A stretch of 64,000 nucleotides of DNA, taken from assembly GCA_963969365.1 (NCBI GenBank), contig OZ017759.1, positions 1,984,001-2,048,000 of the forward strand. Direction: 5' to 3'. Every line of letters begins with the position of its first letter. Positions within the stretch are counted from its first letter, which is position 1. Source of the stretch: Asterochloris sp. CNOR1 (taxonomy: Eukaryota > Chlorophyta > Trebouxiophyceae > Trebouxiales > Trebouxiaceae). The notes below the pieces were generated by a model that was not told the DNA's origin, did no database searches, and saw only the letters and a list, made by a program, of their open reading frames with translations. Made by a program: the position numbers and the translations under genes. Below are positions 36,444 to 62,750 of the stretch, piece after piece.

Positions 36444-39400
36444 TCAGCACCCCAAGGACAGGCACAGTCCCGCATCCAGAATCCCCACCTGCTCCACGAG
36501 CTGCCAGTCATCCAGGGCCACAGTCAGGTCCTCCAAGCGCTTCAGCAGGTCTGCAATGACCCTGTCTCTCTCAGGCTTGCCTGCCTGCAGGGACTCTCTC
36601 GAAGGCTGTGCCAGCTGCAAGATCTCATCAGCCTCAGGGACGGGGTCGCAGCTGCCAGGCAGGCCTGAGCTGCTGAGGTGGAAGCTTGCCACGGCCTGCA
36701 CGCAGCATCTGGTGCTGGAAGCTGGCCTGAGAGGCAGAGATGCGACCTCACTCTGCGTGCTCTGAGTCCAACAGGCAAGCCTGAGGTGCAGAGGCACAAC
36801 TGCCTGCTTGCAATCTGCCGTATTGCTGGCAGGCCTGTGCTGCTAAGGCTGAAACATTCCATGATTGGCAGACAGCATGAACCTTCCACCAGGACAAGAA
36901 TGGGCTGATGGTGTGCGCTCAGGTTGGCACCACTCTGACACTCTGCTCGCAAGGCAAAACTGCATGCAGTTCTGCATGCATTCTCGGGAGAGGCATCCGC
37001 TGGCTGGCTCCGACTGCCTCATCTGTCAAGCCAGACAGCAAGCTCGTGGCACGCATTGTGCAGAGTGAACTCACCGGCACGCTTTTCACTGGCTTGGAAT
37101 TGTTTGGATCCTGATGCAGAGCTGCCATGACACTTTGGCTTCTCAAGAGGCTCCTGAGTCCCTGCACCAAACATGAGGTGGACAGGCGCCTTGGCAGGCT
37201 CCCCTTCTGAGGCACACAACACCTTGTGAAGGAGTTTTGCTGTATGTGCATCAGCACAATGGTGAAGTGTGGAGAGGAACTCATCATTGTGAGGCCTTGC
37301 AACCAGACACCTGTATCTGTCCCAGACTGGCCGAGAGGACTCGCGACATGGGTTCATAACTGGTGCTGGTCCTCTCCAACAGCTCCTGGCTGGCAGCGGA
37401 CACCTCCTGAGCAGAGCCACAAGCTTCGTCTGGATGGGGAGGGTGGCTGTGCTTGACCATTGGCGCAGCACAGAACTCCAGCGGCGCGACACGCTTGGCG
37501 ACCTGCACGCTGATGTTTTTCTTGTGCGTGTGCACCATGCCAGTGCGAGGCAGAGCACAAGTGAGGGGCTCACAATGCTGGACAAGCTCACTGGAACCAC
37601 TGCACACTGCACACAGAAGCTTGCCGGTGTCTGGGCAATGCACTTGTGCAAGCACACAGGGCTGTGCTGACCTTATTCTATGATAAACTCCTGACATGAC
37701 TGATAGCTGAGCCATTGAGGTGGTCAACATGGCCCCTGCTCCTGTCTAACAAGCCCTGCCTGGGGTAGATTGCCAGCACCAGCAAGATTGGTGTGAGCAC
37801 ATAGACACTTGCCTCAAAGTCCTCCAGGCCAGCCAGCTCCCGCAGCAACACTTTGACTGGCTCTATAGGCGCCAGAATCTGGCCTCCCTGGGCGGCTGAA
37901 TGACAGAAGCGCGCTGCCCTGTTTACAAGAGGCCTGCAGAGCATGCAGGTACAGCAGTGACTGGTCTGGTGTTAGGAGGCTGGATGCTCATGAACCCCAT
38001 GTCACATGTGTGCTCGCAGCCTAGCTGCTTGGAGTAGATGTAGGCACAGGCCGACACAATAGGTGCATGACAACGGAGCGTCTCCATAAAGAACGGCTCA
38101 CCCAAAGTAGTCTGCCCGCCCTGTCTGGCCGTGTGGGCACACACGAATGGGGACACCCTCATAGAGGCCTGCACAGGGCAGACAGCAGGCGCAGGTGGTT
38201 ACAAGCCCTTGCTGGCACCAGCTGTACAACACAGTCATCAGCATTGTTCAGCAGGCTTGTTGATGCTGATGCCAAGACCCAGCAGCCTACTTCTCCCTGA
38301 GCAGCAAGACTGCTCATGCATGAGCACACTGGGCCCAGTGCACTGCAGCTTGTCTCAGCAACCAGCAGACCCACAAACTGAGCAATGTGGTGCAGACAGG
38401 TGTGACTGCCGACCCATCTGGACATGGGCTCTGCTGACCAGCAGCTGGTCTGCAACACCCTCAGACAGGGAACCACACTTTTCAATTCCATTTGGATGTT
38501 GATATTGCCCTGCGCACGCAGTTCGCACCATGCACCAGCCCAGGCTGGTCACCCAAGCGCCGTCTACTGCACACAGCGATACGCGGCAGGGCTACCCACC
38601 CATGCGTACACGGGGTCCACTAAACAGCAGCCTCCGCTCACTGTCCACAGCGGCCTGGCAGCCTGGCAATGCAAGGACGTGCTCATCCCAAGGCACGTTC
38701 AGCAAGGCCTGCTGAGCCTGCAGTTCATCAGCACGGCAACGAGCTGAGACTTTGCTGCGCCTGCAGATGTCAAGCCTGCGCCGCAAAACGCAGTCGACAG
38801 TGAGCAATGGTGTCTGTCACTCCTGAAGGATGCCAGGCCTGGCACTGAATTGTTTGAGATTTGCTGGCGCTTGGGCCATGAGCCAGCCACAGGCCTGCAG
38901 CATGGATGCCACAAAAGCCAAGAAGCGCGCCCAGCCGTCACAGCCCCCAGTGTGAGCCTACCAGCAGGCACCACAGGATGGCTGCAGCGCTGCTCCTGAA
39001 AGCCAACATGAGGTCAGAATCGATCTGCTGGCTCTCATACCCCTCCTGCCTCTGCAGCAGTCGCCGGCTGCAGTCCAGATACTGTACAAGGGCTGTGTGA
39101 GCTGCTGCAGGGTCTGCCGCCTGCAGTTGCAGCGCAGGAACATATGACAGAGTAGCCTGGTAGACTTAGCTATGCGATTTTGCAGCTAGGTTGGCTGCCT
39201 GCCAGGCACAGGCCAAGGTCCATATAGACCAGGCTGCCAGCAGCAGGCCATGCTATGAGCAAAAGCTGCATTGACTGGTGGTGCCTGCGCTGCCCACCTT
39301 CATGCTGTCCCAACCCGCCAGAGTTGTAAAAACTATCGTCACCCGCGGCAGCGCTGTGCGTTCGCCGCTCACCGCCTGGCGCACCAGGCTCGCTCTGCTC

Positions 39401-42400
39401 GCTGCAGCAGCAGCCAGGGCGCATGTATCTGGCAACTGTTCATTCAATTCGCATGCTGCATGTCATCGTGGCTGTGCTGCTGCCCATCTGCTGCTTGCAA
39501 ATGGTGAGGCCTGAGTGCTCAGCATAATACAGCAGCTGTACTGTGAATGTTTAATCGGGATCCCTGCTGCTAGCAGGGCATCATGACAGTCCAGGCAGCT
39601 GATGTAGGCTCAGCTGGCACCGCAAGCAGTTGCACACCTCCTGGTGCATCAAAATAAGATGCCTGACGCTGCTCCAAAGTGGCTGGGGGGCGCAACAGCC
39701 TTGCCCGCTCCTCCAAGCCTGGAATTGCCACCTGATACAGCTGCGTCAGCCCTGCCAAGCCCTTCAGAACCTGCACAACAACAGTGTTCCACGATTGCTG
39801 GCAGACATGTGCGCAACTGCGCCACAAAGAGTGCTGCCTGTACTGCTTAGAGCCATTGCAGACAGGGGCGGGCCTGACAGCCTTTCTACCAGACCAGCAA
39901 CCTGCCTGCAGCAATTGCTACTCCCGTCGAGCATGTACCGTTCTGAGATGCTACAATAAGCAGAGAAGTTCATGATGCAGCCAAGCCCTGTAGCCGCCCT
40001 GGCAAAGCAGAAACTTCTTGCTCTGCTTTGTGCTCAGACTCTATCATCAGGCATACTGTGTGCATGCTGAGCTCTCACATGAACTCCCATGTCCACCACA
40101 AGGAGGCTGTCATGGTTCTTCTGGCCTGCACAGCAGAGAAGTCTGCATGGGTGGTTTCGTCAGAACACATTGCCTGCAGGTATTGACTGCAGCCCAAGCT
40201 AATGATGAAGCTTGCAGCAGGCAGGCATCAGACATGCCCTCTTCTGGACATGTTCATGGTGTGGCAACAGTGTGCAGGCCTCTTCAGATCCCAAACAAGC
40301 CCATGATTGCGCCTTGCAGCATGCCAGTCTCACCTGCAGCCTCTGCTTCAGCCTCTTCAAGGTTCTCCATGCGTCTCAGAGTCCTGCAATATGCATCAAC
40401 AATGTGAAAACAGTGGGCCCAGACAAGTATGTCACATCCCAGCTGAGGGAATCTGAAATTGCCGGCACAGCCCATGGCAGACATGTTGCCTTTGACGATA
40501 TACAGCAAAACACAAACCCTGGACAGGGCGGCCATGCAGACCTGAAGGACTCCCTCCTGCCAAGCGGCTCCACACTGCTGCGTACAAGCGATGCTGTTGC
40601 ATCCGACGCCTTTCTGGCAAGGGAGCTGTGATGAATCATAGGCTCTGTTGAAGCTGTTCTTTCTGCACAGCGCCACTCAAAGACTGTGAGCATTGCTGTG
40701 CCAAGTCAAGAGTGAACATCAGGTAGCCTCCTTGCATGCCTTCTGGCAGCGAGGACAGCAATGAACACATGTAAACACCTTCTCTTCCTGAGAGCAGGAC
40801 ACGTCCAATGCAAGATCACCTGTCGAGCTCAGGTCTGCTGTTGTTGCATGAAGGAACCACCTGTTGGAGCGGCTCTGCTGGGGCTCCGGCGCTGCACTCT
40901 GTCGGTGCTGAAGGGGTGCTGGCCTGCAGAGTCTGGGCCAGCTGGAGCGACAGTACAGTTGCAGCAGAAAGCATTGCAGTGCACACTGTGCTAGGGGATC
41001 AGCCAGGAGGCCAGCAAAGGAAGCAGCAGCGACAGCCGTCTGCCCAGCGTCCCTTGCAGGGAATTCCAGGCAGCGAGTCACCTGGAAGGAGCTGCAGGGG
41101 CGCTATCGCCTTGCAGCTCACGCCCTAACTGTGTCAAGTTTCCGAGCTTCTGCACAGCAGTGGGGACAGCTTGCCTCAGCAAGATCAACTCCAGCATTCC
41201 TGGGGCTTGGCTGGAATCCAGCGTGATGCTGCATCGGACCCTGCTTCTCACGGCAGAGCACGGCGCTGTAACTACTCTGTATAGAATGGTCGGAGGCAAG
41301 AACAGTCACCACTGTTCATGCATGGCACTGCGACTGCAACTATGCTGCTTCTGCTGAGAGCAGGCAGGAAGCTGCCGATGAGCCTACAAGCATTTGTGCA
41401 TGCTTGACCCAGCTAACAACCAGAGCTCCTGCGCTTGCCAGGAGCAGGCAGGCAGCTGCCCTAGAGCAGCTGTGACCTTGAAGCTGGTGTGGTCCATCAG
41501 AATCGACCCTCCTTGTGCGGCATTGGCCAGAGCCTGGCAGCGAGTCAACACCTCCCCCGCATACCTCAGACTGCCAGGCGCTGACACCTGCACACACAGA
41601 TAAGCAGGATGCCTCAGGTGTGGTCATGATGCAGACCTGCACGGCTGAGGTCCTGCAGTCAGACCCAGATAACCCTCCAGCAGCCAAATATCATGTGGCA
41701 TGTCAATGAGATCTCACCTGCCATGCCCTGCTCTACCATGCCCCACTTGATTGCCTCACTCAGCTTGACCATGCTCATCTGCCACCCTCTGCGCTCTCGC
41801 CATGCTCTCTTCAGATTGAGTTGCTCATACAAATCCATAGAGCATACAACAGAGGCAGTGCTCACCGGCAGGTGTCCTGGCAGCATGTGCTGCTGTTCTT
41901 CAGGTTTTGCATTGGCCAGATCCACCACTGCAATGCCAGAGGCCATTGCCATGCGGACTTTGAGGCCTCGGAAGAGGACGCCACTGTTGTCCTGCAGAGG
42001 CATGAGGCAGTTGCTCAAGTGCCGAACCCACCAACCATGTACGGCAGCATGTGGACCAAGCCAGTGCCATGCACGCTATGGCCCTGGAAGAGACTGCCCT
42101 TTGCAAGGGCATCTGCTGTTGAGCTAGGCAGCTGTGTGTAACAATGGCTGCATATGGAAGCCGTTGCCATGCAATCAGGCACTGGGAGAAGCGGCCGCTG
42201 ACATGGTCCAGAGGAGTGTGCATGTTCACATCTAGGCACCGGTGCAGCCAGCTGGGGCTTTGACAGCACTGCTGCTGCGCCCTGGCTTGTTGCACTACAG
42301 CACAACTGCTGCGCCCTGGCTCATGGCACTGCAGCGCCACCCAGGCTCCCATTTGCTGCAGGGTGGTGCTTTGTGCAGGAAAGGCCGCTTGCTGTGCTTT

Positions 42401-45400
42401 GACGATCAGCACCAGCTGTTGATAGGCATGCAAGTGCTGCAGAGTACGAGGCAATCAAGGATGGCAGCCTATTTCATCCAATGCAAGTGGGGCTCAGGCT
42501 TCTCATTGTGTGTGCAGGTGCAACAACAAACATGCCCTGCCAGATGAAGGCAGCTCTGGACCTCTTCTAGGGGATCGATGTCCACGGCGACGTCCACGTC
42601 AGGCACAGAGTTGCCTAAGGCATCCACTGGTGGCCTCCGCTCGGAACTGAACGAGCTAGGTCTTGAGGGGGCACATGACATGGCTTGCCCAGGGGTCCCT
42701 ACTCGATGGGTCCATGCAGACTGCCCTGCACAGCACAGTGTAGCAGGCTGAGACGATTGGCCACAGTCAGCAGCTGCACATCTGGAACTTGATGCCCATG
42801 AGACCGCGGCCGAGTGCTGGGTAAACTGCAGCTTCCTGAACGCCGCTTGGTTGAGCTTATGCTGAAGCTGGCATGTAGACAGCTTTATGTGACTGCAGAC
42901 GTGGTTCCAGTGTGCTTGCGCTAAGCGATACTGTTCCGGCGACACGGTGTGCTGGCAGGGGAGGGCAGCGCTAATTGCCTAAGGCACAGCCTTCACACCT
43001 GCCGCCAGAATGCAATCATTGCTGCTACACTCCTCACCATCGGCTCCCAGCGAGTAGGGGCTTCCAGTCAGGCTGGCCACTGTGTGAAGACAGGTGTATG
43101 GGTGCTGCAGCAGGGCAGCCGGCCAGGGAGCTGCCAGCAGGGCCTGCAGGGCAAACAGCTGGGCGTCGCAGTGCTGCTCGGACAGCAGACAGTGCTGGAG
43201 GAGGATCATGGCGCCTGGCCGTGAGGCACATGCACATGTGCCACAGCAAGCTCTGTCTATGCATGCAGTGACAGAGGCCTGTGCAAGACCTGCAAACAAA
43301 GCACTGCCAGGCTGCAGGCAAATGCATGGCTCAACACCTCAGGAAGAGGTACTGCTGAGATGCTCGGCAACGGCTGGACCTGTCACGCGGCTGGCAGTCA
43401 ACCTAAAGGGAAGACAAAAGGGCGGATGCCCAGCAGATTGCACCGCTCACCCGCTTTGCAGTGATTCCACTCGTCAGCAAGCAAGAAGCCAGGCTGATGG
43501 CATGCACACCTGACATGCTGCAGCGTGATGCATGATTGGCAGAATGCAGTGTGAGCGTGCAGAGAGTCACCAGCCGAAGTCCATTGTCTGGGAGAGCAGT
43601 ATGCAAGGGGTGCCAGTGGCAGGTGCTTTGCAAGACAAGGCGGCCAGCAAGGTGACGACCGACTGCCCCACCTGCTGCACCGTGATGCACCACTTCACTG
43701 CGTCCGCAGGATCATGGAAGGCCAGTTGGAAGGCATCACCCTCAGTGCAGACCTCAAAGCCAAAGAACTCGCGCAGGTGGCCCCTCATGATCTTGTCATG
43801 CAGCGCATTTGCTTCATCCATGGATACATTGTCCCACTCCCACAGCTCAGTGGAGCCTGCACAGACATGCAGTAGCCTCTATCTCCCACAGTCTGTGAGG
43901 CCTCATGTTTGGCTCCTGCGCAGCATGCAGCTGCTCTGCGGAGCATGCTGGGCACGAGCTGCATTCATGCATGCACTTGCTGTCCATAAACATGGCTGAG
44001 CCCGGCTGCTGACGGCAGACAAGTCTGTCAAAGGCAGCGCCGACGCATGGCAGCCACCAAGGTCCGACCAAGTGACAGGCGGGCGGGCAGGAGCATGTCG
44101 TGCAAGAAAGGCGGCCCAGCAGTTGGCCTGTCCCTCACCTTCAATGTCTGTGCTGATGAGGGTCAAGTCCTCCCCTGGCCCTGCAGCGACAGCACACTCT
44201 GCATCAGGTCAGCGTTATGCCTGCCTGTCAGCCAAGACCCCGCGCCGCTGCCGCTCTCCCATGCAGACTGGCAATCCTGCTGTGCTGCCAGCTGCAGCGG
44301 ACATGTGGCCTGCTTTGGGAGCGCTTCAGCGGCATGGCCTGTGTTGCAGCTACTGTGGCATGCCTGCCAGCATCCTCTGCGTTGGCAGGCCGGCACACTT
44401 GAGGCGCAGGGCTGTCTGGCATGGTAGGCGGGACCCCGAGTCAGGATCTGGCAAACACACCCCTGCCAGATATGCACCCTGCGCAGCACAGGCACGATAT
44501 GCTTCTGCCGGCTCCACCTGACAGCTCAATGTGGATGCGCCTGGCCTGTGGATGTGAGACTTCAGCGACAAGATGGCAGGCACACTGTGCGTGCACAACA
44601 GCGTCCTGTGCTGTTCATGTTGATGTCGTGCCTGGGTCACCTGGTGGGCCGGCACGCTTGCGACGGAGGACTGCCTGCTCCTTGATGCGGGACCCTATGT
44701 CGAGGTACTGGATCAGGAAGCAGGGCAGCAGGGTGAAGAACAGGGCCCCCAGTGCTGCCGGCAACACAATGGCCAAAATGCCTGCAGCAGAGCTGCATGC
44801 CTTGGGGGCCAGCCTGCACTCAGGGGTTCAGCCAAGTCACTCGAGAATGCAAGGCTGCTCCCTCCCTGCTGCAGCACGCCGCAGCTGCACATGTGTTGGT
44901 GGATGTGCCCTGCAGCCGCAGATGCAGTGCATGTGCTGCACGGCCACACAGACAAGTACCAGCATCACGCTGCACAGCAGCGCACCTGCTACCGAGCCAG
45001 CTGCATTCTGGTTGCTCACAGTAGAATGACACTCTGGCCTGCTGCCGTCATCCTCGCCTTCACTTGGGTTCACCATGAACCCCTCCTGGCAGGTGCAGTT
45101 CTGCAGCGTACAGCTTGGATGGTGCTCCTGCTTCTGGCATAAGTGTCAGATTCACAGGGCACAGCAGCTGTTCAGGCAGATCTGTAGGCGGCAGACCTTT
45201 AGGGGGCAGCTCTTAGGACCTCTGGCGGCCAAGAACCCTGTCCAAAAGCAGACCCAGTGGCGCCAATTTAAGCAGATGCATGTCTGTGCTACACACAGCA
45301 CACTAGCAGGCAGCACATTGGGCTGCAGTTCTGTAAGAGTCCCGTAAAAATAGCCTGGCCCAGCCCCTTGATGCCGGTGCTCGGGACAAGTTGATCCCAC

Positions 45401-48400
45401 TTGAGACTGGCGTGCATCTGCTGTGGACTTCCTGTATTCACAGGCTGGTGCTTTGAACAAGCAGCAAACTCAAGTAGCAGCGATGTTTCCAGCTGCTCCT
45501 GGGGGTGAGCTGGGTGCCGGACTGGCTGCATAGTGCATGAGGCACTCCCACCACAGCAGATATGCATCTGAGGCGTCCAGCATGACAAAGCGCACCCATG
45601 CTGCTGCAAGCTGCATTCTGAGGGGCAGCTGGCAAAGGCTGTCATGAGCAAGGTGGTAGTCTTCACCTGGTAGTCATAGTAGGTGGGGTCAATCAGGACC
45701 CTCATCTTGGCCTGCTCCATAGATGTGCCCATCACGGCTGGGCAAACAATGTCACCAGGCTTCGCTTGCATCATGCGCCTGCAAGCAAGCTGAGAGGGTC
45801 ATGTCGGTGGGCCGCCCTGCTCAGCACATCAAACTGAGCACCTTGCAGCATGAGACAGGCCTGCATGCGGCACATGCAGGCGCAGGCCTCTCCTTCAAGC
45901 CATGTGTGGTGTCTGGGAAAAGCAGTGATGAGAGGGGCATCAGCCTCACTCAGAGAATGTCAGCCAGCTGGGAAGCTGTTCGCCTCTGGAGTTTTCCTGT
46001 GGGGCCTCTGTCTCCATGTTGGTTTGCTGGATGTTAAGATATTGCAGCAGGGTCAAATCGGCCATGCTGTCGGGCAACACGCCGCTGCAGGCAGGCTCAG
46101 CCACATGTCAGGCGCTGAGCTGAGGGTGCATACTGCAGATCCTCATCCCAACAGCCAATGCAAGCATGCAGAGCTGCTCATGTCAGGCGCTTCAGATGGC
46201 AGCCATGCTTAAATGTTCCAAGCGCTTAGGTCTGCCTGCAGCTCTCCACCATCCGTCAATCCAGCGCCTCCCGGTGGGGCAGTGGATACCGGCACAGCAT
46301 GCGTGCCTCTGAAGCAGTTGGAAGAGGGGTTCACCTGAAGTTGTTCATGCTCAGGTCCAGCTGCTCCAGATTCTGCTGCTGGCCGAATTCTGAAGGCAGC
46401 GTCCCAGAAAAGCTGTTGTTGTGGAGGTCAAGCAGCTGCAAGAACAGGTGTGAGCGTCAGCATGAGGCAAGGGCAGAGGTAGCAAAGCGCAGTCGTTGAC
46501 TTTCAATTGGAGGGACAGCAGACGCTTCTACCCAGAGGTCATGAAGGAGGCAGGGCTTTCATGACAAGCAGGCGGTCACATCTTGCAGCAGATGCTACTC
46601 TTGAGCCAGGCCGTGTCATGAGGGCTGCAACAGACGACATTTAGCAGAGGGCAAGGACCCACCTCAAGGTGCTGACATTTTATTCGAGCTGGAATGGTAC
46701 CTGCAAACTGCACCCACAGCCGGACTTCTGTGGCATGTGTGTGCATGGGTACAGGCTCACGCTTGCAGGGCCCACCATGTTGTTCTGAAGGTTAATTCGC
46801 TCCAGTAGGGCCATATTGGCCAGCACAGACATTGGCTGCCCACTCATGTTGTTGTCACTTACATCAAGGGTCTGCAGCAAGGGCATGTACAGGCAGCATC
46901 TGCACACCTCCATGGGATATGAGGAGGGAGCATGCCTGATGCAACATTGCAGTGCATGGTCTGCAACAGCTGCGCATGCTGGGTGCAACGCCCACCGTGA
47001 CTGGCAGTGCACTGAAGAAGATGTCTATCTCGCCCTCCAGGTTGTTTTGCGACAATCGGATCTCAAGAAAACTGCCTGCAGGGCAGATTGAAGACGAGAT
47101 TTGGTCAGAACTCTGCACAAAGGGGCGGGTGGCTTGCGCTGCACTTTGCTGCGATTGCATTCACACATAACTGGCGGTACAACTAAAGTACTTGCCGTTG
47201 TATTGGCTCAATCTGGCAATTGGGGGGGGTGGCAGAGTTCCTGATAAGTTGCAGTTGGCACATCTCCACTGCTCTGCAATAGTGCCAAGATGACGTCAGC
47301 AGCAAGGGCAAACGGGACTGCCAAGATTGACCACTGAGGCAAGCTCAGGAGGCAGACAAAAACTGCAACTGGCAAGCAGGTCTGCAAGCCAGCAGTAGTG
47401 CCAGATAGACATGGCAAGGCCTGGCAGTGCTGCCGCACCAAGCAGGCTTGGAACCAGCCAATCTAAGGGGATGCCGCCGGACAGATTTGGGTTGAAGCTG
47501 GCTGAGAAGTAGCTGACAGACTGCAGCCCTGCCATGGGGGGTATGGATCCAGTCAGAAGGTTGCCCTCCTGCACGCACAGAGTGTTCTCACATAGCAATG
47601 GACTTGGGGCTTTGCAAAAGCACCACAGATACAGGGAGGCTCTGTGTGGCTGCATGCTCAAGTCAGCGGGCTGACGCGCCCATGGCCAGGCATGCACTCA
47701 CCACTACCAGGTATGACAGGGAAGGCAGGCTGAAGAGCTCTGGGGGGAGCGTCCCTGTGAGAGAGTTGAAGGAGAGTTCCAGGACCTTGAGGGAAGACAG
47801 CAGCCCCAGCGCTGCCGGCAGGCTGCCTGTCAATGAGTTGCCTGCAAGACAACGAGCAGCCTCCATGCACGCATCGGCCCTGCACAGTCACTGCGCAGAC
47901 TGAGTAGTCTAGGGCTGCGCAGCAGAGCTGCAGGCCAGCTCCTGCCCAACACCCTTGCATCAAGCACCCTTGCATCAAGCAGCGAACAGCCCCCTTACAT
48001 ACAACAGCAGTGCACAGCGCGCCAGGGCTGCTTGTCAGAGCTGCAGGCCAATCCATCTTGTCAGACCCCTGCCTGATGCACCCCTGCAGCGCCCGGCATT
48101 TTGATGTCACAGCCGCAGAAGGCCAGAGTTGCCGGTCTGCCCGTGTGTGCACAGCGTCCCTTCATATAAGACCACTCTACGGCGTCAAGACGCCAGGTCT
48201 TGCTAGCCCCCTGCCTCACGCTCAACGTCAAAGATTGTCAGCGACTGTGCCAGCGCGAGCCATGTGGATGCTGGCAAATGCGATAGCTTCCCACTCAGCC
48301 CGATCTCCGCAAAGATAATTGCGCCCACTCCTCCTGGCGAGGGGCATGGCAGCTGCGTCCCTGAAACAGAGGCGGGGCTTGCTGGTGGGGTCATTGCAGG

Positions 48401-49192: not shown

Positions 49193-52100
49193 CTATGCTG
49201 AAGCTGTCTGAACCCCTGGCTGCAAGGCAGGACTGCTGATTTGGTGACTGAGCGTGAAGCTTCCTCTCAAGCTCTCCCGGTCGCTGTGCTCCCGACTGAA
49301 GCTGTTGTTGCCACTCATCTGTGAGGAGAAGGCTCGGAACATGATCACTGCCTGCAGTCCCAGCGCGCTGGCGGCTAGCTCTGCCTTTTTGTTGCTGGCC
49401 TGGGGAGGGGGAAACACCCTGCACAGCACATGTTGGTTCGATCTCAGTTCAGCTGAGCATTGCGACTGCAAGCTGACCCTGGCGTCAACAGGGTCCATAA
49501 GACAGAGGGGTACAACAATTTAGCACCACGGTCAGGGTGGAACTTCAGGCTGCACCTGCTGATGAGCTGCGGTCGACACAGCTGAAAGCTCAGATGCTGC
49601 ACAGCAAAGCAGGGGAGTGCGGACCTGCACTTGGCAGATGCAAGAGCAGCAAAGCCAAGCACAGGAGCTTGCTCTGCGCTGCAGCGCCAGTATGGTGCCC
49701 AGGAGGCCACAATGCAGGCAGGCTATTAGAAGATGCTAGCAGCGAGGCTTGGAAGTGCAGCACGCTCAGATGAGCAAGGGCAAGCCACAGGCTGCCCAGA
49801 TGATGACTGACACAGCTGCTGCTGAAGTGCTTATGAGACAGGGATGCTGAGGACTGCAAGTGCTACCTGGTGCTGCACATCAAGCGAAGGAGTGCAGTTG
49901 ACAATCGCAACCCCAGGACAGCACCGCCATGCAGTCCAGCCCAGACTGCCTCTGCAGGTGAGACTGCTGAATTGCAGGGACGCCAGACAGAGATGCAAGT
50001 AGAGGAGAGCAGGCAAAGGGACTTTTCCTTGTACAGTCTGCAGACGCAGCATTCAGGAAGCCAGGGATCCTGCCTCGCACCTGCTGGTGAGGTGCCCGTG
50101 AGAGAGGGACAGCACAGTGTGCACTCCTGGAATGCCCTTGAAACGGTAGCTGCCCTGGTGGCTCACGGTGACCTGCGCAGCAAGCACAGGGTGGGTCCAT
50201 GCCCTGGCTGCAGCGGCAGGAATGTGCTCATCAGGAAGGCCTCTTTGAAGTGTCAGCACACCCTTGCTGGCTGCGCAGGTGACGAGTGTCGCTCAGCCAG
50301 TGGCCATTGAGTGGACAGCATGGCTCTGATTGCGTGGCGATCCTAAATGGTGCACCAGGCAGTCAGGCTGACGGCGTGCCTCTGAGCAAAGCATTGGGTC
50401 GCCCGGCACGTCAGGCTTCAAGTTGCAGGTTTGCAGGCAGAGCATGGGCGCCTGGCAGCGGAGCTCCTTTCTGTATTTTATGACATCCTGGGCCCACCTG
50501 GAGCATCGATCAGTCAGGCAGTGGGTCTGCACCAGAGCAAAGCCTGGCCCCACCCGATGCATCAGGCAGAGGGTCTCTGTCTGAGCACCGCGTGAGCTCA
50601 GCTGCACTTGGGCAGCCGGTCTGCATGGGAGCGACGGCCAGGCCCACCTGCTGCATCAGCTCCCAGGAGTCAATGGTGGCTGACCCGTCTGGGCGGCCGA
50701 GCATCTGGTGCACCGCAGGGGAGGGCAGCATACCAGCCCACATCTTGTGATTCGGCGAAAAGCTGGCACTCTGCAGTGCACACACCCTGTCAAAGCAAGG
50801 TAGACACTGGTTCAGAACACACCTTTCCTCAGAGCTTGACAACATGCTCATGGAACCGGACCAGTCCTTGTTTGAGAAAATGCTGCAGGCACACCATGAG
50901 CATGCCCGGCAGCTGTTTCCCCTGACACTGCTCTCACAGCGCGCAGCCAGTGAGGAACTGGAAGGCGCCTGTAGCTCCTTGCATTGCCTGGAGCACTGCT
51001 GCATACAAGACACTTGATTACAGGCTCGGATGCAGAGCACAAACATGCATAACCCCTGGCGGGCTGCTGCCTGGCCCATGGCAGAATTCTTCATGAGGCA
51101 GCAAACCACACCTGCCTATGGCACTGCCCTCACAATGCAGTAGCCAACAGGCGCCTGCAGCTCTTCACATTGCATGGAGCACTGCTGTACATCAGGCATC
51201 CGACCTGCTCAAACCAAGATATTCAGGGACGACCCCAACAGGGCTGCTGCTTCACCTTCATGGGCAGACAGCACACCAGCGGTGCCCACCTGCAGGTGAT
51301 TCAGAGTACTGTGCAGGACGATGGCCCCGCTGCTCTTCCTGTACAGGTGAGCCCCTTTGGTGGGCTGCCCTTCTGGTATTGAACACGCTGTGGCCATGGA
51401 ACTGCCCTTGGGCAGCGCTGCCAGCTGCATCGGCTCTGAGCGCTCCATCACCTGTGGGCAGCAGACTCCAAAGGTTGAGATTGACTCAGTGCTCCTTGAG
51501 TACAACTGTGATTGCGGAAGCTGGTTTGAGAAATTCGTTTTTGGGATTCTGGTCATTAAGTATGCCAGACATCCACCTTTAGCAACACCCCTGGCGCTCT
51601 GAAAGGCTGTGTCTCCCCCTTGGAAGTTGCCAGTGTGTCCACCTGCGTCTGCAGCACCTCCAGCCAAGCATCGAAATCATGCTACATGTGATCTCACCTC
51701 AGGCCTGGGTGCAATGCTATGCACCCCAATATCCTGTCAGCTCATGCAACAGCCTTTGCTCCACCAGAGGTGCACCCCCCATGTTTCTGTTCTATGCAGA
51801 GCTGTCTGGCCTAATTTGTTCTGCACGCCTGGCAGCATGTGCAGCAGGTCATTTGCCCCCTCCAGTGACGCCAAGCCAAAGAAAGCTGTCCCGCTTCAAA
51901 GCCATGCACGCCTGCTAGCCTCTGCGCCACATCCAGCAGCACCCCTGACATGCAGGAGGCAAACGTCTTCGCATGCATCTATGGTCATCACCTAGAGTCC
52001 TTGCAATGCTCACCTCGTCCTTCTCATGACACCAGATGAGCACCAAACACGCAGGCCTACTCAACCACCAATCTCCCCTCTCCGTCAAGCACAAGAGCCC

Positions 52101-55100
52101 CACTTGTGCATCACCTGCATCGTTGCCAACTGCCTGTTGCTCCTTGGCCCGACTGATGGCGTCTCACCTCAAAGTCCTGCAAGCCTGCCAGCTCATGCAG
52201 CAGATTCTGCACCACATCCAAGGGCGCCAGCACCTGCCCCTCCTGGGCTGCGCCGTGACAGATGCGCGCTGCCCGATTTACCAGCGGCCTGCACGCAAGG
52301 ATTTCTTGGAGTTTATGATGTCTTCCTCGCCAATACACAAGAGGCCTGGAATGTGTTTGTGGTCTCCCCATCCAAGCAGAGAAGCCTCCAGCAATGATGT
52401 CATGCTGACATGGCAGCTGCAACCTCTCCAATCCTTCAGGTTTGCATCCCAGGCAGCGACGGGCCCAAGACGCACCAAGATGTCGCAGCCCCACCCAAGT
52501 AAACCCCATACCCGGGCAGATGACATGTACAGCTGAGGCAGGCATAGGTTGCTACCGCCACAAAAGGCAAAGGACATTTGGGACTTGCACAGCAAGAAGC
52601 GCTGCAGCCTGACACAAAATTGCATGACGCGCACTGCTCACCCAAAGTAGTCTGCCCGTCCAGAGGTGGTGTGGGGGCAGACCCGCGTGGGCACGCCTTC
52701 ATACAGCCCTGCACAGGAGGCAGGGCACTCAGTAAGCTTCATCAATAGGCAGCACCATGTGCAGCTGCAGCCCTTTACTGCTATGCAAGCAGAAGAGTGC
52801 TGTTGCCTTGCAACCACTCCGGCGTTGTGTCAGGCCCTCTGGCTGAGGCAGGCAGCTCAGCCATGAACACTGCTGTCAGCAAGGATGGGGTGTGCGGCAT
52901 TGGTGCGGTCAGCACCAAAGTCGGCGGCTCAACATTTTGCACCACGCTCAGCGAGGCAGGTCCCTGGGGCTGTCGGCAGTCAGCAGCAAATCTTGGCTGC
53001 TCACCCATGCGGACACGGGGCCCGCTGAAGATGAGGTGTGCTGATTTGTTCACCATGGCACCGCAGCCAGGTAAAGCCAGCACATCCACTCCCCACGGGA
53101 CCTGGACCAGCGCCTCCTGAGTCTGCAGAGGGATGGTGCTTTCAGCTGTCCTGACAGGGATGTGGCGAGTGGCAGGGTTCCTGGGCAGCGGGGCTGTTGC
53201 TTGGTGCAGCCATCTGCAGACTCAGAGCCTTGGGCAGTGGTGACTGCGTCCCTGCTCTGATCTGTCAGCAAAGGTGGGCTAGGTTGCGCAGCGGCCAGGC
53301 TCCAGCCCCCAAATGTTCCCTTATATATATAAAGTATAAGGGCTTTCCCTTAGCCAAGGCGCTCACCAACAGGCTCCACAGCCTGGGTTCACTGGCGCAA
53401 GACAGACTTGATGTCACATGGTAAATGATCCCATGACATGGATTGTGTCCAAGCAGTCGTGTTTGAGGATGCACCAAGGTGGCTGACGCCAGCCTCTGCT
53501 ACTCTGTGAGAGGTGTCATGATGTTGCGCCTTACCAGCAGGCACCACAGTACGGCATCGTTGGCGCTGGCAAATGCCAGCATCAGGTCTCCCTCACTGTG
53601 CTGGCACTCGTATCCATTGTGCCAGGCCAGCAGCCGCCGGCAGCAGTCCAGGTACAGGACCAGGGCTGCATTAGCCACTGTAGGGTCGGCTGCCTACACC
53701 GCACAGAGCAGGGTCAGTGTCAGGGAGAAGCCTCCTGACTGGCAGCAGCCTGCAGCTCTTCAGGTGCATTAGCAAGGCAGCGTGACCTGCTCCAGGATGA
53801 GTTGCCTGCAGGTCAGCATGTGTGCATCAGAAAAGGGTAAGAAAGGGCTGCGTGAGCCACTGCAGGGTTGCCAGTGCATAGCGACCAGGCTGCACGAGCC
53901 ACAATAGGGTCAGATGCCTGCTCTGCACAGAGCCGTCATCCCTGTCAGAGAACCAGCCTGCTGCTGAGCAGCTGCCATACAGTGGCATGGAATGTGGCCC
54001 ATACCAGCTGCTGGCAGCAACAAAGCTTGACTGGCAAAGCTTCCTGGTCACGGATGCATGGCAGGCAGTGCATTTAGATGTAGGGCATGCAGACAAGCTG
54101 CTGCTGGTGGCCATACAGTGGAGCCATGCAGTGCTGCTGGCAGGGGAGTGTGACCAGGCTGTGCAGCAATGGCAGATGATAATGGCAGCAGGGAGTGTGG
54201 CCATGCATTGGAGCCACGCAATGCTGCCGTTGGCAAGTAATTCGGCCAGCCTGTGCAGCTATGCGCTGCTGCTACTGGCAGGCAATGCAGTAGCCTGCAC
54301 AGCCCACCTGCATCTTGGGCCAGCTGGGGATGTTGACAAAGACAATGGTGACTGCTGGGAGCACAGTCTTCAGGAGGCGTGCTGACAGTGATGTCAGGGG
54401 AGCTAATTTGGCTGCAACAGGAGGCCAGATGTCTCGTCAAGCACGGTGAGCATTAAGTGCGCTGCATGTCATTCCCGCAGCAGGTTGCCAGGAGACCTCT
54501 TAGGCACCATGCATCAAGTGCAGGTCAGCTCAGACCTCTGGCATTGGCGCAGGCAGGTCTCTTAACTCAGCTGTATCAAGCACAATTCCAAATCCAACAG
54601 CTTTGAGAGCTGCCGCTGCTGCAGTGCTGCATGCAGAGACCAGGAGGCTCAGCCCCGTGGGCCTAGCACAATCTGGCTTCCTTACTCTGAGGAAGCAGCA
54701 ATGACAGCAGGCAACTCTCTGCTGCAGGCGTCAAATAAGTCACGCACCCCCTGGCGCGTCGAAGTAGGATGGCTCCATCTGTTCGAGGGAAACTAATGGT
54801 GCCAGCATGCGAGCGCGCTCCTCCAGGCCAGGGATGGCTGCCTGGTGCACTTGCATGACTCCTGTCCACCCCTTAAGCACCTGCAGCAGACAGGGCAGCC
54901 AAGGCACACACTTTGGCTCTGCCTCCACCCAGCACTCGCCACGATTGGCAGGGGAGCAATCAGCTGCCGTGGAGCGCTGTGCCAGAAGATTGTGATTGAA
55001 GCGCAGTCATGCAAGCTCTGCTGCACTAGCCCACAGTACAGCTAGCAGCTTTCAGCCGCCATTGGCTTTGCAGAACACCATCAGCACTCACATGGACCCC

Positions 55101-58100
55101 CATATCTATCATGAGCAGGCTGTTGCGCATAGTCTGGCCTGCATGGACAGCGACACAGACACTTAGCAGCAGCTGAGATGCGGCAATAAGCATGACCTAC
55201 ACCTGAAATGCATTGTGGAGCCTGCCAGCGCTGCCTGACCCTGCATTTGTGCACATGTGAGGCCAGCTGCCTGTGGTGCTGCTCAAATGCACCTCCAGGC
55301 AGCAAGGTCAGCTGGGCAGCGCTGATAGCGGCCACATGTCAAACACGCTGACGCACCTGCTGAGACGCTCTGCTGCGACTGCGCCATGTCGGCAAAGGAC
55401 TGCTTCTGCCCCCTCAGGCTGCACGGCACAGGCAGAACTGTATCCTTTGAGTCATATACCAGCAGCACTGCTGCAACAGGCCACAAAGCCGCAACACCAC
55501 AAGCAGGCTAGTCGCAGTTGCATGGCCACGTCTGCAGCTACACCACAAGCTGGCACCCACTTCTGCCAGGCCTGCTCAGACGACCGCTGTGCGCGGCTGG
55601 GCAGGTGCAGCAGGTTCCTGAGCCAGGACTTCTTCTGGCCAGCGGTGACTTCATCCTGTGAGGGACCTGGAGAGCCTCCTGGTGACCCGCGCAGAAGCGG
55701 TGCTCCGGACTGCACCCGGCCTGGCACCTGGCTCATGGCACGGCTGATTGCCTCGAATGACCTGCGCTGCGGTGTCCTGCAGTAGCCCAGATGCATCAAG
55801 TGCCGCACATGCAGATGCGGAGGCTTGTGGTTGATGAGGTCACTGCTGGCGCATGCACAACCCAGCAATGCGCATTACTCTCAACGCACTTTAATGTGGC
55901 TGTGCTGAAGCATCTAGGAAACTTGAGATGCAGCAGGTCCTGACCGCAAGTGACCGCCACTGCTGCACGTGCAACTGTCACCTTGAGCTGCCGCCAGACC
56001 GGCCAGAGCCCTGAATGTCCTCCAGAAGCTGGGTCAGGTTCCCCAGCGCCTGCAGCAGCGCCACCATCACTGCTTTGATAGTTCTGCGCAAAGCCATGAG
56101 GCAGCCAGCAGGGAGGTGGCGTTTGAGACGACCATGGGCACAATCGCTTCCATTCCCCGCTCCAGTTCCCTTCCATGCAGCCTGGCAGCCACTGCATGGG
56201 CTTTCAAGCAGGTGTCACTGCAGTGTGCTCACCAGGAATGCTTTATGGGATATCAGGATCTGTCCCCCACGGGCAACGTCTGCAATTGCCCTGCACCTCG
56301 TGAGCACCTCCCCATTGTACTCCTTGCAGCCACTGGTGGGGTTGACCTGCGTGAGGCGTCAGGGGTTTGGAGCAGCTGAAATGGAAGTTTCAGGGGGATA
56401 CACAGGTGCAAAGCTTACCAGTGAGGCAGTCAGTACATGATGAGCAGCGCTCACGAGGCAATCAGGCAAAAGCATGTGAAACAACTCATACCCATGCAGT
56501 CCGTTGCTTCAGGTCAGCTCTGAAAAATGGCGCCCACCTGAGTGGTTTCAACCTTGCCAGTAGCCAGCCCCATGCGCACACACAAGCCATGGAACAGGAT
56601 GACGGCTTTGACAGGCTCCTGCAGCAGGCTGGCCAGATTCAAGATTGCTGCCGCAGACTTTGAGGAGGTTCTAGTCACTGTTGAAGCTTCGACAATAGCC
56701 CTGGAAGCGAAGTGTACAAGAGCAGGCCAGCCACAGTCAGGCATGCTGCTGCAGGCTCAGCATAGAGTCCTGCTGCGTTGCAGGTCCAGCAGGTGCGGAA
56801 GCAGAGCATGCTTTAGTAAAACAGCCCAGACCCAAGTTGCAGCATCTGCCAACAGACAGCAAGCAGCGGTGTTCAGGCTCAAAACAAAGACACACTGGAG
56901 GTGCCTCCTCATCCACAATCCCAATCTCCTGCTCTGACTTGGGTCCGTTGGTTGTGTTGGGCATGTTCAAGGTTGTGTCACTTGGCTGTGCATTCCGATT
57001 GGAGGCCATTGATTCTGAACGCAGTGGGTGAGCTGCAGCAGGAGACAACAGGTCACTAGGCTGGGGCCCGTCCCAGCCCTGCTGAGCACTTCTTGCCACT
57101 TGGCGCCAGTAGCAGTCACATGGGCTGTGCACACAAGGTGGCTTGCCTACCAGGGTAGGAAGGAATGAGTGAGCTTGGCATGGTCTCTTAACGTGGCAGG
57201 TAGAGGCAGCTATTCAGTCACAACATGTGGTAGCTAGTCGGCAGCAGCAGAGAGCACAGATGGGCACAGGCTGAGATGTCATGCCCCTTCTTTCCAAAGT
57301 AACAGAAGCAGCTCTCTCACCCTTGCCAGCCGGAATCAGGGGACCTCCAGACACGGTTTCTACTGTACGGATGCAGGAGTGTGGGTGGTGCTGCATGGCC
57401 ATGGGCCAAGGCGCAGCCAGCAGCGCCTGCAGCAGCAGCAGCCATGCTCATGCAGGCAGCCAGATTGGCCCTTCAGGCTGCACTTAGGTCGTGGGCCTGC
57501 TCAGCAGCTAGGAAAGCAGAAGGCCCGCTTGATAAAAGAGGCACTTCTGCCAATCTGCCATACAAGTCAATGATTTCTCATGCAAAACAGCATCACACAG
57601 GACAGAACCACGACTGGGAGCTGGCTGTGCAAGTCTGGCCATGCATTTCGTCCTTGTGAAGAGACTGTGGAACGCCGGGACAGGCACTCAGCAGCCCTGA
57701 CAGTCCTTTGCCTCACCTTCTGAACTGCAATGCACCACTTGATGGCATCTGTTGCCTCATGGAAAGCAATGAGGAAGGCATCCCCTTCTGTGGCGACCTC
57801 GTAGCCTGAATACTCGCGCAGGTAGCTGCGTAACAGCTTGTCGTGCAGTGAGATGGCATCGTCCATCGTCTCTTTGTCAAATTCCCATAGCTCAGTGGAG
57901 CCTGCAGGGTTCAGCACAATGTGCATGAGCCTGCATAAGTTGTAGTGCACCCTGCAGACAGCTTTGTAAGTGGCACAGCATGTCTGACACTCGCACTCAG
58001 CCTGCTGTGGAGCCCGTACGAGGTACAATGTGCTGCACAGTGCTGGCTTATACAGCCAGAGCTGACGTCCCAAGCCAAGGTGTCCATGCTTGGCATGCAG

Positions 58101-61100
58101 CAGGCCCATCCTCAGGGTTGCCTTGCGGGCAGAGATTTCTTTCTTAGGGCCCACCTTCAATATCTGTGCTGACAAGAGTCACATCGTTGCCCAGCTCTGC
58201 ACGGCAATACTGATATATTCAACTGTCAGGTGAGTGAGACAGCATGGCAGCTAGGCCGAAGGCACTGCGTCACCCAAGCCAAGTCTTGGTAGCAGGCCAG
58301 TAGCAAGCGTGATGCAGCAGCACACCAGGAAAGCTGTCTGGAGCCAAGAACAGCCGAGCAGACCCAACAGTTCCAAAGCGCCTGCTGAAGGCCCTGCGTG
58401 CTCAAACTGCCCACTGCCACTTGAGCAGTGTACAACTCACAAAGCACACCAGGCCTGCATCTTGGCTCCAGACTACACAGCACCCTTCTGCATTTACAAA
58501 GCAGAAGCAGGTGCAACAGGAAAGCAGCAGACTGGTGTAATCTGTCCCTTGCAGGGCACGTTACCTGGAGGGCTCGCGCGGCCCCGCTGCGCAGCAAAGT
58601 CTACCTGCTGAACCGCCCCAGCCCACCAAGGGGTCTGGGCATGGCCCTCCATCCCCAGACCCTGCAAGCCTTTGCCTCAACAGCCCCTGCACCCTTCTGG
58701 CGCAGCCCATTCAGAGCCGCTGCTGCCCACCCTCAGCAGCTGCAGACTTGCCTGGCGGCCCTGCTCGCTTGCGTCGTAGAGTAGCCTGCTCCTGCAGTAC
58801 TGCTCCCAGCCTGAAGAACCTGAAGGCAGCCCAGGGCAGCCCCAGCAGCACAAGCGCTCCCAGGACTGTGGGCAGGATGATGGCCAGCAGCAGGGTCACC
58901 ATGTTGTGTGGCTTCATGGGAACACAGGTGGGCAGTGTGTTGTTGGTGGTGCTGAACTGGAGCGTGGTTCCGGCCTCGCATGCACATCTCTGCAAGCAGG
59001 CACTCCACAGGCTGGTGGCCGTGATCTGGTCATGCTACCTGCAAGTTACTTGAAGGCAGCAGCTGCAGCACCTGTACCAGGGGTGTGATTTCGCTGTGGT
59101 TCTATCTGTCAGAGGGCAAAGTGGAGTGAATGGCATGTGATGCGGGTAAAACGAGAATCAAGTGTGCAGGTGGCTGGCTGCATAGCAGCGCAGGGTGTTT
59201 GACAGTAGCCTGGAGGCTGCGGTGCCTGGGGAGAGGGGCGGGCTGAAGCTGCTGCATGAGTGTTGCAGCTGCTGCGCGATGGCGCATGGCACTGCAGAGG
59301 CTCCTTGCTGGGATTGGCACATTGTTTGCACATGAGCAGCCCCAGCAGAGAAATGTTTGCTGCAGCCCTGCCTCCTCATGGCAAGCCATTCAGGCGATGC
59401 TGTTGCGCACCTGATAGTCAAACAGCTTGGGGTCAAACACCATCTGCATGGATGTTGTCAAGGGAGGCAGCGTGTCCAGGTCGCTGCACAGGAGGTGTGC
59501 GATGGAGGGCAGTGACGTCATCGTACTGCAGGGGCAGCAGAGTGCAGAGTGCAGCATAGACTCTGAAAGGCTGGAGGTAGATGTGCGGGCAAGCCCAGCA
59601 ATGCATAGCAGCCATTCGCAAGGCGCTACGGCCAAGGGGGCACCTAACACCAGTTGCAGGTGCTGCCAGAGTCTGCTAGGGTGAGCATAGACCGAAGCAC
59701 TGCTGCACAAGTAAGCACTTGCTCGGGATCAGCTGGGACTCAGAAGATGCCGACGTTGCAGGAGCTTTACTGGACTGCATGGAAGTGATCACTCACTTGC
59801 CATAAGTGAGCCAGCTGGGCAGATACTCCCCTCTGGAGTTGGGCCGTGAAATATTCCCAGAAATGCTTGTGTTGCCAATGTTGAGGTTGATCAGGTTTGC
59901 TAGTGTACCCATGCTGTCTGGCAGGGGCCCCGTCAAATTGTTGTTGCCCAGGTCCAGATACTGGAGGCCCGTCTGGTTGCCCAAGGAGGCTGGCAGAGTG
60001 CCTGTGAGTTGGTTCCCACCAGCCTGGATGACCTGGGGGCAAGCATGGCAGGCAGTGTTGAATTGTTAAACCCTTGGTGCAGTGCAAGTCGCCCTTAAGA
60101 CATCACAACATGTACCAAAACAGCTTGATTAATGCATGTTCTGCTCCAGCATGGCACCTGTGAAGTCTCCCGCACCCATACTGACATTTTAAGGGGGAAG
60201 AGAGGCTCTGCCCAGAGTCCGACGTCAGTGGCTGCCTCTATGCAGGAACCTCTGCACGGGTGCGTGCACAGCTCACCTCAATTAGATTCGAGTACCATTC
60301 TTCGGGTAGGGTCCCTTCAAACTGCAAAGAAGTGGCAGCTCACCCGTTAGGCAAGCTAGCTGCCGAATCATTAAATGTGCAACTTGCTCACATCAGGCTG
60401 TCAACAGGCTGCTGTGAGGACTTGCACATTGGTGTCAACAGGGGTAATGTCAGGCCTCACCTGGTTGTATGAAACCTGCACACGCTGCAGCAGTGGGTAA
60501 AACTGAAGGACATCAAAAGGCCGCCCCGTCATCATGTTGCCCCTGACATCAATGGTCTGCACCGCGTATGCAGTAGGGGCATCAGTACGTCTGGCTTTTG
60601 GACACGTGTCTTTCTCAAGGTTTCATTTGCTTCAGCATGACACATGTGTCTCACCCTGATGGGCAGGAAAATGAATGATGGGTCAAGGGCGCCAGTCAAG
60701 CTGTTCTTGCCAAGTCGAAGTTCCAACGTGGAAGCTGTACCAAGGCACAGGCAACATTAGCAAAAGCTTGTGCATGAGCCATGCAGTGGCGCGCCAGGCA
60801 CTGCACAAGATCCTGCAGTTCTTGGCACAGCAAGCCTTGCCGTTCCATTCCCGGGCCGTGACGATGTTGGGTGGCGGGATTGGGCCTGAGAGGTTGCAGC
60901 TGACGCAGGCCCACTGCTCCCTGAAGGCAGCAGAAAAATGCTCACTGTTGCTGACCATACCCAGGCATCATGCAACACACCTGCTCCCTGTGACCAGCAG
61001 GGCAGCAGGTGTGTGCACACACAGCAATGCTGAGTCTGATCAGCAACAAGCACATGCATGGATGAGTTGTACTCACAGGCCCGCAGCTGACAGCCAATCA

Positions 61101-62750
61101 CTTGGTATGCTGCCGGCAAAGGAGTTGTAGCTAGCTGAAAAGTAGGCCAGCGTCGTCATGCCTGACATGGACGGAAGCTGGCCTCTCAGCAGGTTGTGGT
61201 CCTGCACAAAGCAGTAAGCAGAGGTCTCAGCCAGCCAACTTTGAGAAGGCTTGCAGACTGTCAACCGCCGACCATAGGTACTGCGCTGCATTGTCCAACA
61301 GCGGGCTGCAGCTAGCAAGGCATTATGCAGGGGACTGCACTTGAAACATTAGCGTGTGGTTCAAGTTTGCGTAGTACACATGGCCTGAGTCAGACAAAGT
61401 GATGCTGGCAACCTGTGGCTGCGTTTATGCAGCTGAGCACGGCACTGTCAGAAAGTGATTGCCGCTTGCTTACTGCTGCAGCGCACAACTTGCACTGCTG
61501 GCAGGTGGGCTGCAGGTGCAATGATGCCACCGGAGTGCCGCGTAGCCAATGTGTACGTGCAAGGCAGAATGCGCTGTGTGGGCAGACAGAGTGCAAACAT
61601 TACCAGTATTAGGCGCTCCAGGGCTGAGAGGGTAAACAGTGAGCTTGGTATTGTGCCTGTCAACGAGTTGACAGACAGCTCCACGTCAGCAAGCTGGCTA
61701 AAGTTGCCAAGTGCTGCAGGGATGGTGCCCCTTATGCTGTTGCCTGCAGATCAGGCAGGTCAACTGGCTGTCAGGAAGCAGCCCTGCATGAACCGCTCTA
61801 AGGCCTTGAAAGCACCGTCAAAATGCTCAAGGCCGGTAGTGAGGACCCCTGCACACTGCCCAGTGAGTATTGGTGCGCCAGTGCAGGCCTCACTGCAGAG
61901 AAACTTGCGCAAAGACTCCTTTAGTGCTGCCAAAGCCTTGCCAGATCAACATTGCAGGAGCATTGCAGCAGGCAAAACAGCTCACCGTGTAGATCAATGA
62001 GTTGTAGCGATGGGGCTAGTGCCTGCCATACTGAGTCATTCACATCTGACAAGCTTCCGCTGAGCTGCTCAAGGGGCCAAACGATCTGCATGATGGCGTG
62101 CAGCTGGGTGCAGAACACGCCAGTGGAGACAGCTGCATTGCAGGAATTTGCATAGGGTCACACTGGGCAAACTGCAGCCTTTATCTGCTGCAAGCATATC
62201 TGCAGCGACACAGAACGCATCATGCCCGCCACCAGTGCACACAATGTAAGGCATCAAGCATTGCAGCAGGGCAAGCCATATTCATCGACTGTGCTGCAGC
62301 CTGCGCACATGGGATTACACAGCCAGCTGCTGCTTGCTCTGCTACCTGAGATATAGTAGGGTGGGGACAGGCGAGGGATCTCTGCGCAGCAGCTGACCCC
62401 AGTATACTGACAGTGAGCTGGCAGGGCTGAGATGTCTACGCCAGGGGTGCCCGCGCCAGCTGGATAAGTCTGAGTGATTGTCAGGTTCTCTAAGGGGTAG
62501 CCACTGAGTGCAAGCCTCAGCTCAGCAATGGCTGCACCCTGCAATGCCTGCAGGTCAGAGTGAGATCAGTGGAGCCTTGAAAATGGTGAACTCTCATCTC
62601 ATGAGATTGGCCCTGCACAATCCCCAGGGCAATCAGTGTGAAGAATGCACCTACCTGGCATGTGTCATTGCAGACCTGGCCATCCACAGTCCGGCCAATA
62701 CTGAGAAGCCATACAATCATGCCAATCAGGGGAGCACGGGCCGGCCTCAT
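49193..62750 (-). CDS. LRR receptor with two class III nucleotide cyclase domains (paralogue X)
   Basis: Signal peptide exon 62655-62750 (MRPARAPLIGMIVWLLSIG), a cap region ending HCQYTGVSCC, then LRR exons (GTIPAALGNFSQLADVELSV, NLLRGQLPSMSG, LELRLGKNSLTGALD, LDLGNNNLTGPLPDSMG; 62.1-59.8 kb). Conserved FDPKLFDYQV (59.42 kb), a Cys-rich segment, one membrane span (MVTLLLAIILPTVLGALVLL) and [10 protein letters not shown] (58.74 kb) follow. C1: DVTLVSTDIEG at 58.17, STELWEFD and ATEGDAFLIAF at 57.9-57.7, FHGLCVRMGLATG at 56.6, EVLTRCRAIADVA at 56.3, [11 protein letters not shown] at 54.8. C2: VTIVFVNIPSWP at 54.33, NGYECQHSEGDLMLAF at 53.6, FSGPRVRMG at 53.0, SGRADYFG at 52.65, [14 protein letters not shown] at 52.27, YRFKGIPGVHTVLSL at 50.15. 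The last exon (49193-49399) ends GVQTASA. It would sense an apoplastic ligand and make cyclic nucleotide inside; Asp in RADYFG favours cAMP. Confidence 0.82.
53318..53342. repeat. AT-rich palindrome in cyclase X intron
   Basis: CCCTTATA and its reverse complement TATAAGGG flank a nine-base AT-rich loop, in an otherwise GC-rich intron between C2 exons. It could form a small hairpin; no element around it was recognised. Confidence 0.6.

Follow-up and report, generated by a model that had tools for sequence, protein, structure and literature searches.

Genes A and B, as we call them here, lie in tandem on the minus strand of a 64,000-nucleotide stretch of the genome of Asterochloris sp. CNOR1 (the window, G000:C14:1984001-2048000; the source genome measures 56.38 Mb in 21 contigs), and the sequence gives good support that each encodes a leucine-rich repeat (LRR) receptor with two class III nucleotide cyclase domains, C1 and C2, on the same chain. 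The products are probably LRR receptor adenylyl cyclases with a single membrane span and one composite catalytic site per C1/C2 pair. As read from exon translations, C1 has lost the catalytic Arg and usually the Asn, and C2 has lost the first metal-binding Asp, which is a complementary split as in animal adenylyl cyclases, placed on trypanosome-like domains. The order of the parts, the single open frame of gene A and the residue split across a family of paralogs are all legible in the genomic sequence. The parts are as follows, in window coordinates.

50053..62750, minus strand: gene A, for an LRR receptor that bears both cyclase domains, C1 and C2 (26 exons, one open frame, 1,065 amino acids)
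62655..62750, minus strand: exon 1 of gene A, with the Met and what is likely a signal peptide (judged by eye), followed by CNDTCQ
59797..62547, minus strand: exons 2-9 of gene A, encoding the ectodomain, which has an LRRNT-like Cys motif together with LRRs of the plant type (LRR_8 and LRR_1 exceed their cut-offs; GSO1 match)
58731..58989, minus strand: exon 11 of gene A, encoding a CAC motif and the membrane span LLAIILPTVLGALVLLGLPWAAF, followed by RRKRAGPPG (from the splice model and hydrophobicity)
54748..58196, minus strand: C1 cyclase domain of gene A, with the two metal Asp in STDIEGS and TEGDAF, and with VLTRCRA in place of the expected VN..AR
50053..54411, minus strand: C2 cyclase domain of gene A, with VFVNI where the first metal Asp has been lost; last intron of 1,995 bp
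35792..48794, minus strand: gene B, same part order as A (27 exons in the model, one phase-mismatched junction)
45950..48516, minus strand: exons 2-10 of gene B, encoding the ectodomain with its LRRs and an LRRNT-like motif (from the splice model and Pfam)
44641..44781, minus strand: gene B membrane-span exon (from the splice model and hydrophobicity)
39638..44198, minus strand: C1 cyclase domain of gene B, which retains STDIEGS and TEGDAF and has VLTRCQA
35792..39401, minus strand: gene B C2 cyclase domain
41992..43037, minus strand: gene B junction inside C1, after exon 43143-43038, with a donor of phase 1 and an acceptor of phase 0

Profile searches of the spliced chains recovered PF00211 (Guanylate_cyc) in two stretches of each, at 52.4 bits in A and 39.1 bits in B (cut-off 21.9), and the C1 domain of A by itself scored 41.4 bits. 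LRR_8 and LRR_1 exceeded their cut-offs in both chains, and no kinase family appeared among the Pfam matches of either up to E 1. The best solved-structure match of the gene A ectodomain was the plant receptor kinase GSO1 (E 2.9e-82); for C1 and C2 of both genes the best matches were the trypanosome receptor cyclases GRESAG 4.3 and 4.1, with E values against GRESAG 4.3 of 3e-21 (A) and 4.5e-12 (B) for C1 and of 1.8e-4 (A) and 3.2e-8 (B) for C2. After the LRRs each chain has one strong hydrophobic stretch (mean 2.75 for A and 2.41 for B); a second one, within C2, barely exceeds 1.5. Both genes thus have the LRRs and the one span of a plant-type LRR receptor, together with a signal peptide and an LRRNT-like motif recognized by eye. 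The LRRs, membrane span and two class III cyclase domains proposed in the initial annotation are therefore borne out by Pfam matches, the hydrophobic stretch and the single frame of gene A. When PF00211 was searched genome-wide exon by exon, the window gave no match at E 0.001, which we attribute to the shortness of the exons. NCBIfam returned a lone match on the cyclase pair of A, to a lipase/cyclase (27.8 bits against a cut-off of 800), and a match of the C2 of A to a methylamine dehydrogenase family was under its cut-off and was taken as chance.

The cyclase pair is not restricted to A and B. Genome searches that used pieces of A and composed queries found both cyclase halves at 14 loci, which apart from A and B are named by contig and strand: C8+, C8-, C13, C9, C17, C16a, C16b+, C16c, C3-, C3+, C4 and C12. 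These counts are lower bounds, and the loci are related to one another rather than independent trials. The C2 of C4 was weak (E 0.0077) and that of C12 weaker still (E 0.36), the latter being confirmed by reading. As a genome probe, the membrane-span exon of B matched A and B only, and none of the pattern matches to relatives in prokaryote genome contigs (172) or viral contigs (9) was confirmed. Six further places with Guanylate_cyc exons (G000:C10:1611830-1612938, C12:2398500-2403136, C14:1883539-1884442, C10:1944656-1944883, C16:1122886-1123281 and C1:4443836-4443961) fall outside the matches of the family searches and are perhaps other cyclase types.

We tabulated the catalytic residues of these loci from exon translations, leaving loci without the relevant exon out of n and assigning the meaning of each position from GRESAG alignments and general knowledge of class III cyclases. 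The first metal Asp of C1 is present in all 12 loci read and the second in all 13, the place of the Arg holds Ala, Thr or Lys in 9/9, and the Asn place is lost in 6/7, C12 keeping it. The C2 domain has lost the first metal Asp in 9/9 and, by ungapped counting, the second in 8/10, with Asp in C16b+ and C16c, both poorly aligned there; its purine-binding Asp, Asn and Arg are kept at 11 of the 14 loci, A and B included. A division with the metal Asp pair on C1, the purine Asp, Asn and Arg on C2 and the converse residues lost was accordingly found in A, B and nine more of the 14 as far as readable, and was not found in C16b+, C16c and C3+. Since the residues of C1 and C2 are complementary, one composite site per pair would be expected. 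The idea of two equivalent cyclase domains, implied in the initial annotation, is rejected by this table, while its claim of a cyclase pair on one chain stands at the level of sequence.

The gene A model was not continuous at once: in the first assembly the frame broke after exon 57426-57321, and it was restored by exon 57032-56896, one of four candidates, picked because a phase-matched exon is visible by eye at this position in the paralogs C8+ and C8-. In C16c and C12 no intron occurs at the place of this extra exon, and the frame reads through. All listed donors of gene A are GT; gene B uses two GC donors (48440 and 37813), and its start Met lies immediately before the modelled exon start at 48791. 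Splice sites were chosen jointly for the two genes by alignment, frame and site score, plus a bonus for equal phase, and some ectodomain exon borders are a choice between near-equal sites.

Arranged head to tail (A 62750-50053, B about 48794-35792), the two genes share the order signal peptide, LRRs, membrane span, C1, C2. Matches between their stop-to-stop open reading frames (ORFs) run collinearly from the LRRNT-like motif through the whole of C2, 17 of them scoring at least 35 bits (maximum 103); four decoy comparisons, with the other strand or with window positions 20700-34000, gave none at that level and at most 30.4 bits, so similarity by chance was rejected. The antisense comparison gave 8 such matches. 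Two tandem genes with the same part order, as first proposed for 36444..62750, are confirmed by this collinearity; of that extent the start of A at 62750 holds, but B ends at about 35792. Intron phase is equal at 21 of the 25 junctions compared, and C1 and C2 are the most conserved portions (non-synonymous distance, dN, 0.37 and 0.30). In both genes the last intron is about 2 kb long (A 50173-52167, 1,995 bp; B 35957-37812, 1,856 bp; minus strand), exceeds the other modelled introns in length and occupies the same place in the same phase.

Could the LRR part and the cyclase part nevertheless be separate adjoining genes, joined in appearance only? In favor of this, the LRR and membrane-span exons of A and B are linked by splice models only. 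Against it stand the same order in both genes and their equal intron phases (under a scoring that favored equal phases), together with the length of the introns that connect the last LRR exon, the Cys exons and the membrane span, which is just 171-566 bp. The paralogs add to this. At 5 of the 7 loci read (C16b+, C16c, C3-, C12 and C16a) the membrane span and the C1 metal motif share one uninterrupted ORF, which speaks against separate genes; at the other two, C8+ and C9, they do not. Reading upstream from the first cyclase motif at 11 loci (in C4 from the second C1 exon) with a hydrophobicity threshold of 2.1, we found a hydrophobic stretch ending 70-450 nt upstream of the motif at nine, and at ten if C8- is counted, where a weaker stretch (1.87, below the threshold) ends 256 nt upstream and is followed by RKRTGPP, resembling the RRKRAGPP of A and B. 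No such stretch lies nearby upstream of the second C1 exon of C4. In A and B the exon that encodes the end of C1 contains a linker, YFDAP, and YFDAP, YLDAP or YLEAP occurs in the C2-start ORF of C8-, C8+ and C3+; because this Y(F/L)(D/E)AP motif goes with the end of C1 in the one case and with the start of C2 in the other, it chains C1 to C2 across paralogs. LRR matches were also found upstream of the cyclase part in C13, C8+ and C8-, and in C12 by one exon only, the further 3 kb upstream of C12 holding no LRR match. Pattern searches of C9 and C17 (7,799 and 1,465 bases) gave no LRR match, and an LRRNT-like motif with one LRR was seen in each by eye only; for C16a, C16b+, C16c, C3-, C3+ and C4 at most about 1.5 kb upstream was covered. 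Taken together, we consider separate genes very improbable and a single chain the well-supported arrangement.

Several points weigh against a receptor with a C1/C2 split site. The continuity from LRRs to span comes from splice models, with no shared exon; four of the 25 junctions, all in the ectodomain, differ in phase although the scoring favored equal phases; and for gene B the mismatch of phases 1 and 0 at 41992..43037 implies a further exon there, for which seven candidates were found, none preferable. By itself the C2 of gene A scores 18.7 bits against PF00211, under the cut-off of 21.9. In the residue table, both the Asn and the Arg of C1 are unreadable at 5 of the 14 loci and the Asn at two more, and the second metal Asp of C2 counts as kept in A and B if the alignment is shifted by one residue. 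The C2 domains of C16b+, C16c and C3+ lack the purine Asp and Asn, their Arg not being readable. At the place of the purine-pocket Lys of C1/C2 adenylyl cyclases there is Gln at 10/14 loci, A and B among them, and Gly at 3/14, with Lys in C4 alone. The distances between A and B (dN/dS, where dS is the synonymous distance) are 0.63/1.60 for the ectodomain, 0.45/1.43 for the membrane region, 0.37/1.57 for C1 and 0.30/1.41 for C2, with dN below dS in all four, a point in favor of the receptor; dS is saturated (1.4-1.6), so only the direction is meant, that of a protein under constraint.

Other accounts of how the domains work also have to be weighed. They might act between chains, the C1 of one receptor pairing with the C2 of another, so that ligand-driven dimerization activates and degenerate paralogs serve as partners or decoys. 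Single-span receptors commonly function as dimers, each chain of the nearest solved relatives, the trypanosome receptor cyclases, has a single domain, and C16b+ (L065) and C16c (L066), the two degenerate paralogs whose C1 metal positions were read, keep both metal Asp of C1 beside a C2 without catalytic residues. C1 and C2 nevertheless occur together at all 14 loci, and an intramolecular pair is therefore possible everywhere; we hold pairing between chains to be a tentative alternative. What these sequences specify is most likely an LRR receptor followed by a C1/C2 pair, whether its two halves come from the same chain or from different ones. It is possible that C16b+, C16c and C3+ (L029) are partner or decoy receptors; some family members look dead or partner-dependent, and the degenerate ones either may be dead or may make their C1 available to other receptors. 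That the domains are instead pseudo-enzymes, kept as signaling scaffolds, would fit the missing first metal Asp of C2, the missing Arg of C1 and the three paralogs without C2 catalytic residues. It would fit poorly with the complementarity, as far as readable, of the losses at the 11 loci whose C2 is intact, and with C1 and C2 being the best conserved parts (dN 0.37 and 0.30, against 0.45 in the membrane region and 0.63 in the ectodomain), and we regard it as improbable.

As to the product, the purine Asp is typical of adenylyl cyclases, and guanylyl cyclases usually have Glu and Cys at the two purine places. The Asp is kept at 11/14 loci, and on this residue cAMP is the likely product; the Gln that replaces the purine-site Lys at 10/14 makes it likely rather than certain. 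The same exchange is what a guanylyl cyclase, or an enzyme with another product, has in its favor, and given the conserved Asp and the usual Glu and Cys of guanylyl cyclases we think this unlikely.

Under the preferred reading, in which each C1/C2 pair of an LRR receptor adenylyl cyclase makes up a single composite site, the secreted ectodomain with its plant-type LRRs would bind an extracellular ligand, control by ligand being suggested by the architecture, and one membrane helix with a basic juxtamembrane stretch would lead to C1 and C2. C1 would give the two metal-binding Asp, and C2 the purine Asp and the transition-state Asn and Arg. Paired head to tail, the domains would create two sites, one of them working and the other dead, as in the adenylyl cyclases of animals. 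The bound ligand would alter how the C1/C2 pair is held and thereby the rate of cyclic nucleotide synthesis, most likely of cAMP from ATP. We infer that an extracellular signal would in this way be converted to cAMP or cGMP.

The arrangement resembles several known systems in part. Trypanosomatid GRESAG 4.1 and 4.3 are likewise receptors with a class III domain, and they are the best solved-structure matches of C1 and C2, but they have one complete catalytic domain per chain after the span and no LRR ectodomain, whereas A and B have two incomplete, complementary domains in tandem behind LRRs. Animal membrane and soluble adenylyl cyclases share the metal Asp pair on C1 and the purine Asp, Asn and Arg on C2 within one chain; they differ in having many spans or none where A and B have a plant-type LRR ectodomain and one span, and the domains of A and B match trypanosome cyclases best and carry Gln for Lys. 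Plant LRR receptors usually end in kinases, and the ectodomain of A is of their kind (GSO1, E 2.9e-82), with the cyclase pair standing where the kinase would be. Fungal Cyr1 also joins LRRs to a class III cyclase on one protein, but its LRRs are intracellular, it has no membrane span, and it has one catalytic domain.

The arrangement of an LRR receptor with a split cyclase looks new. No report of LRR and cyclase receptors in algae was found among the titles and opening lines of abstracts listed in the literature searches, which says nothing on database annotation. Genome papers on Trebouxia, Asterochloris and Coccomyxa were covered by term only (PMC11523091, PMC12712428, PMC6652019 and PMC3446292), and none of the terms looked for occurs in the last of these. 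In the part of PMC11355073 that was covered, LRR-kinase-like and adenylate cyclase transcripts are separate entries.

Elsewhere in the window, an exon just upstream of gene A (63078-63305, minus strand) has TPR matches, all under curated cut-offs, and probably belongs to a gene other than A. It was the only one of seven other window ORFs to match any Pfam family, the remaining six being without one. A 270-amino-acid open frame at 28637-29446 (plus strand) has no Pfam match; its WGGIPRFVLEK is, we presume, reminiscent of Crinkler/RHS-type proteins. RNA family searches of the window gave no match.

The wider genome contains chlorophyll a/b-binding exons (11 matches at E 1e-8; none in 14 control genomes), which indicate a green alga, 36 matches to class I phosphodiesterase exons (0/14 controls) and 23 to cyclic-nucleotide-binding exons, a family also found in 10/14 controls. 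With the latter two present there are candidate makers, breakers and readers of cyclic nucleotides, and the whole pathway could be put to the test. A single 713-amino-acid frame at G000:C19:9147-10916 (plus strand) has a protein kinase match (positions 3-263 of 263) preceded by two cyclic-nucleotide-binding matches, which makes it a PKG-like kinase without introns, near a contig start, in an intron-rich genome.

On a broader view, about which we are evenly divided, this green alga would signal through about 14 receptors, LRR-bearing where the upstream region was seen, each using a C1/C2 split-site adenylyl cyclase built of trypanosome-like domains; the animal-type split site would then have arisen independently, directly behind a receptor and in the role that LRR receptor kinases have in plants. 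If this is true, a green alga would possess a receptor that turns an outside signal into a cyclic nucleotide without a G protein, and a trypanosome-like cyclase with its catalytic residues divided over two domains would be a second case of the animal solution, one whose division of residues gives direct residue-level predictions.

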